IMG/VR virus record: IMGVR_UViG_3300027708_002314
Span: 1-51,262 of that record
DNA length: 51,262 bases
Source of the DNA: a virus
Reading direction: 5' to 3' (one strand)
This document shows positions 2,849 to 31,945 of this stretch, in pieces. The notes under the pieces were generated by a model. The model was not told the DNA's origin. It was given only the letters and a program-made list of their open reading frames with translations, and ran no database searches. Position 1 is the stretch's first letter. Each line of letters begins with the position of its first letter. The position numbers were made by a program, and so were the translations under genes.

Positions 2849-4612
2849 TTAATCTCCGTTTTTTTTCTTTTTCTTAATTATTTCTGATGTTTTTATTTTA
2901 ACGTCATCTGGTGTAACTAAAGGTTCTTTATTACTAGAACCCCCTAATGTTCCACCTACTCCTATATCACAAGCACCTGGATCATCAATTGCTTCTTTAA
3001 CTTTTCTAAATGATACAAAAGACTTCTGTTCAGAATAAGTTTGATTTCCTAAACCTGCTGTTACACCAGGAACACGGGAATTGTATGTATCACCAATGCC
3101 TGTTCCTTGATTTACAGACCTACTCATTACAACATTAAAAGTTTTATTCTTCTGAGCTTTTACTTTTTCTTTGTCTTTTTGGAAGCTGGGTTCTTTGGTC
3201 GTGGGGAGGACTTGGACTTTGGGGCCACCTTTTTGACCGGAAAGGTCTCCACTATCTTCATAATATCCTTTTGGGTCGTAACCGGAGGTGTACTTAATGT
3301 CTCCGTCTGTAACGGAATCGACTTTTCCAATTTTTCGCTGGAGCTGCTGGCCTGGGGCGTTTTCTTGAATAGACCTAAAATTGCTTTTAACATTTTTGTT
3401 TTCCTTAAATAATGAATTAATATTCAATTTACTTCTACGATTCAACCAATCTTCGGCTGTTTCTCCTAACATACCAGAATCTAAGAATCCAGTTGTTTTT
3501 TCATATACCAAATGAATATCTTCTTCTTTGGTATCTAGGTTACCAGTATTATCAAAGGTAATACAGTCCGTAAATGATTCTTGGAAATATTTAGTATTTT
3601 GCTGACATTTCAACCATTTATCTTGGCGAACCGATTCAACCATCATTCTGGACAATAAAGAGTTTCTTTCTTTACTGGTCTCATTGGTGGTTTCAACAAA
3701 AATCATCATTGTGTCGTAACCAAGTTCTTCTAATTCTTCTTTAATATAAGCAATTCTATTCTGGTCATCGGCTGGACCATTGATAATCAAAGGACCACGA
3801 TTACGGATGCCTTCTCTACGGAAATCACTGGTTCTTTCTGATAGTTTTTGTTTATCAGCCAAATACTCTTGTGCTTGAATGAAGTTTAACTCCACAATCT
3901 TGGATTCAGCAATGGCTTCACGAATGATAATATCTTTACCTGAACCTGGACCACCAGTTACAAAGATTGCTTTGAATTGTCCGTGGTTATAAGATTCATG
4001 TAAACCCATACCTTTACGAGTATCGTTCATCAACTCTTTAGCGTGGGTGTCAGACACATGAGATGGAACACCTTTGCGAAACTCATTAAAGTTTTTATTC
4101 TTCGCATGTTCTCTCATCTTGGTGCCAGATACACCTTCGGATCCTTCAGCATCAGGATCACGATGGCCAGCGGAATGTACTGTTATCTTTTTAAAATTAT
4201 AAGGTACTTTACCTTCTTTATTGGGTTTACCATTGTATTTGTTTAATGAATCTTTAAATTCTTTAACACGGTCCGAACCAACAACAACATGGAGGTGAGT
4301 TACACCTTGATTGTGTAACTTTTCAGCATGACTGAAAATGGAAGGATGTTCTTTTGAAGATTTTTCGATATTGGTACCGGGAGAATAACGCTTTAGAGCT
4401 TTAACCTTCTGTGGGCCGGATAAAGGATTTTTCTTAGCGTCTTGTGTGTGAGATACAATAACATGATGTGAACCGCCAACATTCTTAGCAATTTCTTTAA
4501 CCTTATCGATTACTTTTAAATGTCCTGTGGTTGGAGGATTCATCCGACCATAAGTCATCACGGCATGTTTACCTGCATCTTTTTCTTCTACTATTTCTAA
4601 GAATGATTTCAT
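2849..4612 (-). CDS. Nucleotidyltransferase fused to P-loop kinase-like domain
   Basis: 587 residues with two enzyme domains. Residues about 17-185 look like a class I (HIGH-type) nucleotidylyltransferase: GRMNPPTTGH has the T-x-G-H motif at 28-31, GSDRVKEF lies near 112, and SGTKMREH near 162 matches the late ISSTxxR-like motif. Residues about 213-380 look like a P-loop kinase with Walker A GGPGSGKD at 220-227. A low-complexity charged tail follows. The nucleotidyltransferase part could act on NMN, pantetheine phosphate or another phosphate; the substrate cannot be read. The N-terminus MKSFLEIVEE resembles T4 capsid-targeting peptides, so packaging in the head is possible. The start overlaps the upstream stop by four bases. 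Late gene by position. Confidence 0.75.
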   Translation of the reverse strand: MKSFLEIVEEKDAGKHAVMTYGRMNPPTTGHLKVIDKVKEIAKNVGGSHHVIVSHTQDAKKNPLSGPQKVKALKRYSPGTNIEKSSKEHPSIFSHAEKLHNQGVTHLHVVVGSDRVKEFKDSLNKYNGKPNKEGKVPYNFKKITVHSAGHRDPDAEGSEGVSGTKMREHAKNKNFNEFRKGVPSHVSDTHAKELMNDTRKGMGLHESYNHGQFKAIFVTGGPGSGKDIIIREAIAESKIVELNFIQAQEYLADKQKLSERTSDFRREGIRNRGPLIINGPADDQNRIAYIKEELEELGYDTMMIFVETTNETSKERNSLLSRMMVESVRQDKWLKCQQNTKYFQESFTDCITFDNTGNLDTKEEDIHLVYEKTTGFLDSGMLGETAEDWLNRRSKLNINSLFKENKNVKSNFRSIQENAPGQQLQRKIGKVDSVTDGDIKYTSGYDPKGYYEDSGDLSGQKGGPKVQVLPTTKEPSFQKDKEKVKAQKNKTFNVVMSRSVNQGTGIGDTYNSRVPGVTAGLGNQTYSEQKSFVSFRKVKEAIDDPGACDIGVGGTLGGSSNKEPLVTPDDVKIKTSEIIKKKKKNGD

Positions 4613-30820: not shown

Positions 30821-30918
30821 CTTTGAAAATACCTCTTTTTCATTTCCTCAGATTGTAGTTGTTTAGCATCTTGAATAACTTCAATAACTGAAAGAATAAA
30901 TTTTTTGATATTTTTCAT
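30817..30918 (-). CDS. Microprotein, 33 residues, amphipathic helix
   Basis: MKNIKKFILSVIEVIQDAKQ, then LQSEEMKKRYFQR: a likely amphipathic helix. Its ATG overlaps the hsp20 stop (ATGA), so it is translated by coupling. Function unknown. Confidence 0.5.
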   Translation of the reverse strand: MKNIKKFILSVIEVIQDAKQLQSEEMKKRYFQR

Positions 30919-31367
30919 TTGATGGCAATCTTTTTGATGGCATCTTGTGCCTTTACCATATTCTCTAACCATACTTTGAGCATACCATTGGCAATTTCGG
31001 CATCTTTAATTTCTACCTTATCGGCAAGAGTAAAAGAACGGACAAAATTACGGTTGGCAATACCTTTATAGATGAAGCTTGCTGGATCTTCAGAACTTTC
31101 AACTGCTGCACCTCTGATTATCAATTTGTTACCTTCTAAAGTAACTTCAATATCGGTCTTAGCAAAACCAGCAACTGCCATTTCAATGACATATTTGTTG
31201 TCTTTTACTTGACGTATATTGTATGGAGGATAACCAGGCGTTGCCTTAGCAACAGTTTCAGAGATATCACGGATTTGGTCTAATACATCATCAAAACCAA
31301 CTGTGAAAGGATCCAAAGATTTGGATAGTGAAGTCCATTGTGGAAATAATAGATTTGTGCTTGTCAT
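30915..31367 (-). CDS. hsp20: Small heat shock protein Hsp20 (IbpA-like)
   Basis: 150 residues from the ATG six bases after AAGGAG. The alpha-crystallin domain runs from YPPYNIRQVKDNKYVIEMAV through GNKLIIRG to GIANRNFVRSFTLADKVEI and GMLKVWLEN, closest in style to bacterial IbpA. It acts as a holdase for unfolding proteins; T4-like phages of marine origin often carry one. An in-frame ATG at 31454 would add 29 residues but has no ribosome site and runs through the structured leader, so I reject it. Expression is expected late (TATAAATA at 31523-31530) and probably temperature-controlled by the leader. Confidence 0.9.
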   Translation of the reverse strand: MTSTNLLFPQWTSLSKSLDPFTVGFDDVLDQIRDISETVAKATPGYPPYNIRQVKDNKYVIEMAVAGFAKTDIEVTLEGNKLIIRGAAVESSEDPASFIYKGIANRNFVRSFTLADKVEIKDAEIANGMLKVWLENMVKAQDAIKKIAIK

Positions 31368-31517
31368 GTGTTTCTCCTTAAATTCAAGCGAGTTTTTCAA
31401 AATTGATACCCCGAAGGCGTATCGGATTAAACTGGTTACGGTATCCAGCGGCATCGTAGCGTCATGCCCGCTTTAAAACGCTTCGTAAACTTAGCGGTCC
31501 TAAGGTGAAGCCAGTAT
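31368..31517 (-). promoter_or_regulatory. Candidate ROSE-like RNA thermometer in hsp20 leader
   Basis: About 150 bases of leader. Just before the ATG, CUCGCUU (31392-31386) pairs with the ribosome site AAGGAG (31379-31374) over a GAAUUU loop: six pairs with one bulged G. U-C-G-C-U matches the U-Y-G-C-U signature of ROSE elements, where a bulged G faces the Shine-Dalgarno sequence. A hairpin with a UUCG loop lies upstream (31405-31423, GAUAC-G-CC/GG-GUAUC), and GGAUACC further 5' could pair alternatively with its 3' arm. ROSE leaders control small heat shock genes in proteobacteria, which fits the gene downstream. Proposed by eye. Confidence 0.6.
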
Positions 31518-31522
31518 ATCAG

Positions 31523-31530
31523 TATTTATA
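31523..31530 (-). promoter_or_regulatory. T4-type late promoter box TATAAATA (hsp20)
   Basis: Perfect TATAAATA on the minus strand just after the end of regA. Initiation near 31517 gives the structured hsp20 leader. It implies that Hsp20 is made with the virion proteins. Confidence 0.7.
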
Positions 31531-31537
31531 CTAGGAG

Positions 31538-31945
31538 TCAATAAGCCCCTGGTTTTTTACCAATTTGATATTTCGGAGTTAATTCCCAATCATCCTTTTC
31601 CTTATGGGAAAGTATCTTAATCTGTGATAGGAAGATAGGAGGCGGTTCTTCAATTTGTCTGGTGTTAACAATCTTTACCAGTCCCCAATCAGATAACAGT
31701 TTAGCAATGGCATTCCTACGAGATAAATCATTCTCGGAAATGTCGGTTGGTTTGCCATCCAAAGCAAATAACTCTTTGAAATGTACAATATAATACTTAC
31801 CTTGCTTATGTAAAATATGACAAGATTGGTAAAGTATTCTGTCTTTTTTGGAAGCTACACCGATACGAGTAAGAGTTTCACGCACTTTGAGAAAATCATC
31901 TTTTTCATTTAATGTAACTTCAACTAAATCGATAATTGAAATCAT
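31538..31945 (-). CDS. regA: RegA translational repressor
   Basis: 135 residues. DDFLKVRETLTRIGVASKK, LYQSCHILHKQGKYYIVHFKEL and RRNAIAKLLSDWGLVKIV match T4 RegA throughout. RegA binds around start codons of many early phage mRNAs, including the clamp-loader genes, and represses translation; here it directly follows gp62 with a four-base overlap as in T4. Length matches the family. Confidence 0.92.
   Translation of the reverse strand: MISIIDLVEVTLNEKDDFLKVRETLTRIGVASKKDRILYQSCHILHKQGKYYIVHFKELFALDGKPTDISENDLSRRNAIAKLLSDWGLVKIVNTRQIEEPPPIFLSQIKILSHKEKDDWELTPKYQIGKKPGAY

Follow-up and report, generated by a model that had tools for sequence, protein, structure and literature searches.

The window, by which we mean the whole stretch of DNA analyzed here (51,262 nucleotides of IMG/VR virus record IMGVR_UViG_3300027708_002314), carries T4-type replication genes, including gp44-like and gp62-like clamp loader genes and regA, with a gene for a small heat shock protein, hsp20, directly downstream of regA on the minus strand. 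In a comparison of 16 marine T4-like cyanophages (PMC3037559), hsp20 was part of the core genome of each; capsid scaffolding has been suggested as its role. In RNA order, the hsp20 leader of the window consists of nested promoters, an 82-nucleotide (nt) RNA domain, a hairpin (hairpin A), an anti-Shine–Dalgarno sequence (anti-SD), the Shine–Dalgarno sequence (SD), and the AUG, with the following coordinates:

30915–31367 (−): hsp20, small heat shock protein of 150 amino acids, the putatively controlled gene (PF00011, E = 6.6e-16; PHROG 432 Hsp20, E = 2.1e-38)
31359–31363 (−): CAAGC in codons 2–4, predicted competitor for the anti-SD (GCUUG), with a pairing probability of 0.96 at 20 °C and 0.39 at 55 °C
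31365–31367 (−): hsp20 start codon (AUG), read from the sequence
31374–31379 (−): Shine–Dalgarno AAGGAG, 3′ arm of helix B, read from the sequence and inside the covariance model match 31424..31374
31386–31392 (−): anti-SD CUCGCUU, 5′ arm of helix B, with the ROSE core UCGCU, read from the sequence (core in 193/194 leaders)
31405–31423 (−): hairpin A, GAUAC[G]CC-UUCG-GG-GUAUC, with bulged G31418 (7/7 pairs with two-sided changes, 98.2% paired)
31431–31512 (−): 82-nt structured RNA domain, four helices and two pseudoknot contacts, from covariation
31513–31541 (−): sigma-70-like promoter TTGACT-N17-TATACT (10/12 matches, the best in the region)
31523–31530 (−): T4-type late promoter TATAAATA, read from the sequence, within the spacer of the sigma-70-like promoter
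31538–31945 (−): regA, translational repressor gene (PF01818, E = 1.6e-45)

The initial annotation had placed hsp20 behind a late promoter, which is indeed present, but this description is incomplete in that a sigma-70-like promoter overlaps it. Sigma-70-like counterparts of the form TTGACA-N17/18-TATACT are found in relatives, and the nesting TTGACA..TAGTATAAATACTA..TATACT recurs in many of them. In 155 of the 194 phage leaders surveyed below, hairpin A is preceded by a box of the late or −10 type, with a median of 3 nt between the two, such that transcripts starting there should consist of just two hairpins.

The 82-nt domain is undescribed and has no match in Rfam. In 43 sequences, 98.2% of its cells are paired and nine pairs show double changes, and its covariation score is 0.273, compared to 0.112 in shuffles (0 of 500 as high); it includes the invariant stretch CACCUUAGGACCRCUAAG (loci L082–L146 and L532–L600). 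Its presence in 5 of the 194 hsp20 leaders marks it as optional. In 99 of the 106 unique contexts with the domain, it is followed by a ROSE-like core and a gene for either Hsp20 (68) or a small protein (31), and since four contigs (L536, L582, L594 and L600) carry the domain right after the regA stop without the putative thermometer, it is an independent module. Within this RNA, the first 11 bases of ACCUUAGGACCG (31495–31506, −) are invariant; this sequence is the complement of CGGUCCUAAGGU, a near-universal 23S rRNA segment known from the I-CeuI site, and the complementarity could be due to chance.

A further proposal of the initial annotation was that GGAUACC offers an alternative pairing for the 3′ arm of hairpin A. 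The complementarity exists as sequence, but GGAUACC belongs to CUGGAUACCGUAACCAG, the last hairpin of the 82-nt domain, and where the sequence of hairpin A differs (L085, L126) it stays the same or changes independently. As it is part of another domain and does not follow the changes in hairpin A, the alternative pairing is unsupported, and we reject a conserved switch of this kind.

Structure and Conservation of the Two-Hairpin Element

The pairing on which the initial annotation had built its reading is borne out by the letters: AAGGAG can pair fully with CUCGCUU, giving the six pairs of helix B, with G31389 bulged within U-C-G-C-U (a U-Y-G-C-U motif). This bulged G is conserved among the phage relatives aligned. 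A check for the fourU type found no four U facing the SD of the window, the anti-SD being CUCGCUU. The UUCG hairpin that had been noticed upstream is also present, as hairpin A, while its bulged G, the second of the leader, had been overlooked. Hairpin A occurs in 121 unique forms, in which the outer stem passes through all pair types and the bulged G and the C-G pair after it are mostly kept. It is the counterpart of hairpin I in the short ROSE plan, and through it the leader has the two to four hairpins, with stable 5′ ones, of a ROSE element. In phage P-HM1 (NC_015280.1, L287), the annotated GTG start of hsp20 sits at the 5′ side of hairpin A, which turns the putative thermometer into coding sequence; this start is probably wrong. 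Another type of upstream leader is seen at positions 4300–4500 (+) of L157 and in L243, in which hairpin A and helix B are separated by an additional segment that looks structured (GACGTGATAC...GGTCACACAACTACAA).

To survey such leaders, hsp20 loci were gathered by protein similarity, using four queries against IMG/VR and adding named phages, and the DNA before the start was examined; five of the named phages (P-SSM2, P-SSM4, syn9, S-SKS1 and P-RSM4) were found by leader searches and are thus not blind. The core, [UC][UC]GC[UC] with AGGA no more than a few bases downstream, was recovered from all but one of the 194 unique phage hsp20 leaders (193), almost all of them protein-selected; in 30 dinucleotide shuffles of the upstream portion, it appeared in 16 leaders on average and in 23 at most. 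The ROSE trait of a 3′ proximal hairpin in which U(U/C)GCU pairs imperfectly with the SD is present in the same 193 leaders, and the bulged-G core is shared by phages from freshwater and those of Prochlorococcus, Synechococcus and Pelagibacter. The lone exception is Vibrio phage VpB-34, which is without the leader and whose Hsp20 is without an equivalent of IbpA R93.

Covariation of the SD with the anti-SD in relatives, on which the initial annotation had staked its proposal, was found. In a model-based alignment of 101 distinct sequences, which was fitted to the structure and thus leans towards it, 98.0% of the cells are paired and both members have changed in 10 of 13 pairs. The covariation score reaches 0.520; shuffles give 0.156, with none of 500 attaining the observed value, and sliding the partners yields no more than 0.114. 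Unlike this alignment, the pair counts for helix B are anchored on sequence alone, although they do not represent independent events, as kin share changes. Pair 1 occurs as C-G (125), U-G (35), A-U (31, a single clade), G-C (1) and U-A (1), and can vary in this way yet always be standard because the SD itself also changes, for example to AAGGAU in the HTVC103P group and AAGGAC in ACG-2014j. Pair 3 is C-G in 130 leaders and U-G in 63, the loop-side pair is mostly U-A and is A-U in seven leaders, and the longer SD GGAGGU goes with a lengthened anti-SD, AACUUUGC, in 34 of 36 leaders. Two pairs of helix B are invariant across the alignment, which counts against our preferred explanation; half of this helix cannot vary freely, because the SD arm is constrained in any case.

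We also built a phage covariance model that excludes the clade of the window, from 11 leaders of marine or named phages, with an alignment set on the tetraloops and on equal helix B loops replacing MAFFT alignments (A1–A3) that had partly misplaced the SD or hairpin A. This model finds the window leader with 42.5 bits (E = 7.5e-13), the next best site in the window scoring 12.0 bits, and on phage genomes of 114–208 kb it usually gives one strong site, which is the hsp20 leader wherever annotation existed. It also detects bacterial ROSE elements, with 21.5 bits for Escherichia coli ibpA, 18.4 for ibpB and 16.1 for Pseudomonas aeruginosa ibpA, these controls having entered through host DNA within unverified phage records. 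The records are those of Pseudomonas phage Y7 (L277) and Campylobacter phage A11a (L290), with host-type ibpA and its ROSE leader; the ibpA genes (P. aeruginosa-like and E. coli, respectively) are probably bacterial contamination. The comparison with Rfam that the initial annotation had suggested gave a divided answer: ROSE_3 (RF02523) aligns over its full length (model positions 1–69), in register with the SD and the start, but the gathering score of 43 bits is not reached by the window (18.7) or by the best phage locus (36.6). We thus call the element ROSE-like by motif and anatomy, and by the Rfam threshold it is outside ROSE_3. Rfam freshwater-2 also matched this part of the window (18.3 of 49.9 bits), which was judged to be chance.

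Taken together, the core count, the covariance model match and the covariation score rule out a chance origin of the element. The plain folding-energy z-score of the window leader is −0.2 to −0.3, giving no signal of structure, and mean SD accessibility compared to shuffles is uninformative. The central claim of the initial annotation, a ROSE-like element before a phage hsp20, is upheld by the covarying helix, by the core in nearly all leaders and by a model made independently of the window.

When viral contigs were scanned with the 17 bases AACTCGCTTAATAGGAG only, at least 106 unique contexts were obtained, 103 of them readable. Among these motif-only matches as listed, 64 precede Hsp20, 38 precede one small-protein family and one is a chance match without hairpin A, showing that the element is, among the matches listed, restricted to hsp20 and one other family of small genes. 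The second family comprises phage proteins of 70–98 amino acids (MLxxINTSIDTISGAKTxFVKTFV..., MFYANMAIDSIQDAKINFLKQ...) with the same ROSE-like leader (L153, L179, L098, L083 and others); the name "phasin" is not secured for it, as it comes from a single sub-threshold match to TIGR01841 (E = 0.009). The long element, sought in cellular genomes by a 22-base pattern, was not found. Among genome contigs, a single close relative of the Hsp20 was found, on a contig binned into a Bacteroidetes metagenome-assembled genome (L531, CAIWHI010000271.1); it has a phage-type hsp20, a late promoter and a ROSE-like leader, resembles phage DNA and is probably a misbinned phage.

Proposed Thermosensing and Its Alternatives

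We consider it probable that the phage hsp20 leader is a ROSE-like translational riboregulator or thermometer, on the short two-hairpin plan of Pseudomonas ibpA. Here, hairpin A would provide a stable folding or 5′-end hairpin, and helix B would hide the SD through the UYGCU pairing, with the bulged G keeping the helix marginally stable. A rise in temperature would loosen helix B and allow ribosomes to bind, such that Hsp20 could be made at once from existing mRNA, transcribed from the overlapping sigma-70-like and late promoters, and could protect virion or host proteins when heat and infection coincide. We infer the temperature response from the anatomy of the element and its kinship to known ROSE leaders, and its set point and what the phage would gain from it are likewise inferred.

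Two-state melting of the helix B core gives a median Tm of 46.5 °C for the phages, against 57.5 °C for P. aeruginosa and 67.5 °C for E. coli under the same rules; these values hold for 1 M salt, with the bulge cost read from the native helix, and have relative meaning only. The lower predicted Tm would fit hosts living in cool water. In energy models, the isolated leader melts gradually, with a probability of helix B of 0.99 at 20 °C in the window, a result supportive of temperature-dependent opening. When 30 nt of coding sequence are added, this probability at 20 °C is only 0.04 and increases on warming, which is the wrong direction, and the SD is left open. Folding is thus equivocal for the window because codons 2–4 compete for the anti-SD. 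AAGC or GAGC is present in codons 2–9 of 95% (the clade of the window) and 93% of the unique genes in two clades, and of 0–9% elsewhere; this amounts to two cases, as sharing within a clade reflects ancestry, and the predicted CAAGC pairing may be a tuning competitor or chance. We note that helix probabilities are also low when the same energy model is applied to the validated ROSE element of E. coli ibpA, and since it handles this control poorly, we do not treat it as decisive in either direction.

A strong rival to this reading, which we nevertheless rate as less likely than not, is feedback repression by the Hsp20 protein, and it may also join thermosensing rather than replace it. Here, phage Hsp20 would bind its own leader and repress its translation until titrated away by misfolded or assembling proteins, by analogy with E. 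coli IbpA, which binds its own ROSE-bearing leader and represses its own translation in a manner that requires R93 and is released by aggregates (PMC10474464). The positions of IbpA R93 and Y34 are conserved in every complete leader-bearing phage Hsp20 aligned, and the one phage without the leader, VpB-34, is also without the R93 equivalent; an aggregation sensor would moreover explain why a lytic phage keeps the element without heat. Against this, an arginine of the R93 type is common in small heat shock proteins, making its conservation weak evidence, and the element also precedes a family other than Hsp20, which would call for repression in trans, as by E. coli IbpA on ibpB.

The gradual predicted opening, and a coding-start competitor that blurs any switch, would also suit a helix that senses nothing and only sets a low rate of translation. 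We regard such a static attenuator as unlikely, as it would need neither the conservation over large distances of the ROSE traits (the bulged G, the Y at position 3 and the flanking C-G) nor confinement to hsp20 and one small-protein family among the matches listed. Far less probable is a temporal switch of the kind known for T4 e and soc, where the ribosome site is hidden in early transcripts but free in late ones, which start inside the hairpin. The phage is T4-like and has a late promoter overlapped by a sigma-70-like one, but with the box so closely upstream of hairpin A in 155 leaders, transcripts should hold both arms of helix B. Finally, an open frame from the ATG at 31454, with 29 in-frame codons open upstream of the start, could make the leader an N-terminal extension of Hsp20. 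In relatives, however, the three frames are about equally represented among the distances from helix B to the start (68/65/60) while the structure is conserved, which refutes such an extension for the family and makes a coding artefact the most improbable of these explanations, with a negligible chance of being correct.

Returning to the ROSE-like riboregulator, nearly every phage hsp20 examined carries an element that can hide its SD, and it is thus probable that heat or protein damage turns on this core gene in viruses that are abundant in oceans and lakes. A leader conserved in nearly all of these genes implies that the phage needs the chaperone on demand. For the lineage of the window, we tentatively suggest, as a rather doubtful extension, a two-domain leader in which a pseudoknotted module (binding a ligand, a protein or the ribosome) would be combined with a thermometer under viral ROSE-like control, thus offering two signals for Hsp20 and a second small protein, with hsp20 belonging to the core genes both of T4-like cyanophages and of lake and Pelagibacter phages related to them. 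If thermosensing is correct, it would turn from a matter of a few single cases among phages into a trait of very abundant aquatic viruses, with relevance to warming water. In addition, the survey yields hundreds of naturally occurring ROSE core variants, among them some with exchanged base pairs or with melting points predicted to be lower.

Relation to Known ROSE Elements and RNA Thermometers

The initial annotation was aware of no described phage ROSE element, and our search of the open literature, subscription papers lying outside its scope, likewise found no earlier report. Known phage RNA thermometers comprise those of lambda cIII, the fourU element of SPbeta blyA and a sigma-70 fourU element of gut Caudoviricetes (PMC10586365, PMC11182007); none of these is described as ROSE-like and none stands before a heat shock gene. 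Outside small heat shock genes, U(U/C)GCU and the bulged G are also found in ROSE-like and ROSE-G elements upstream of ABC transporter genes (PMC11342760, PMC12857270); these belong to bacterial genes, and phages are not mentioned in relation to them in PMC11342760.

With classical ROSE elements (hspA of rhizobia, ibpA of E. coli), the phage element has the UYGCU/SD core in common, and the phage model detects the E. coli ibpA and ibpB leaders, whereas the classical elements have three to four hairpins and the phage element has two. The closest likeness is to Pseudomonas ibpA, for which ROSE control has been validated: its leader of about 62 nt has two hairpins, of which the second is sufficient for thermoregulation, and loss of the bulged G leads to repression (PMC3669281). 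In both cases, two hairpins lie directly before the start of a small heat shock gene, and ROSE_3 is the family that aligns best; hairpin I is of the type GAU[G]CC..GGGUC, and U(U/C)GCU with its bulged G stands against the SD. Unlike its Pseudomonas counterpart, however, the phage helix B is shorter and richer in A and U, with a lower predicted Tm and scores below the Rfam gathering threshold (at most 36.6 of 43), and in place of a sigma-32 promoter the phage element has a late or sigma-70-like promoter and, optionally, a pseudoknotted domain upstream.
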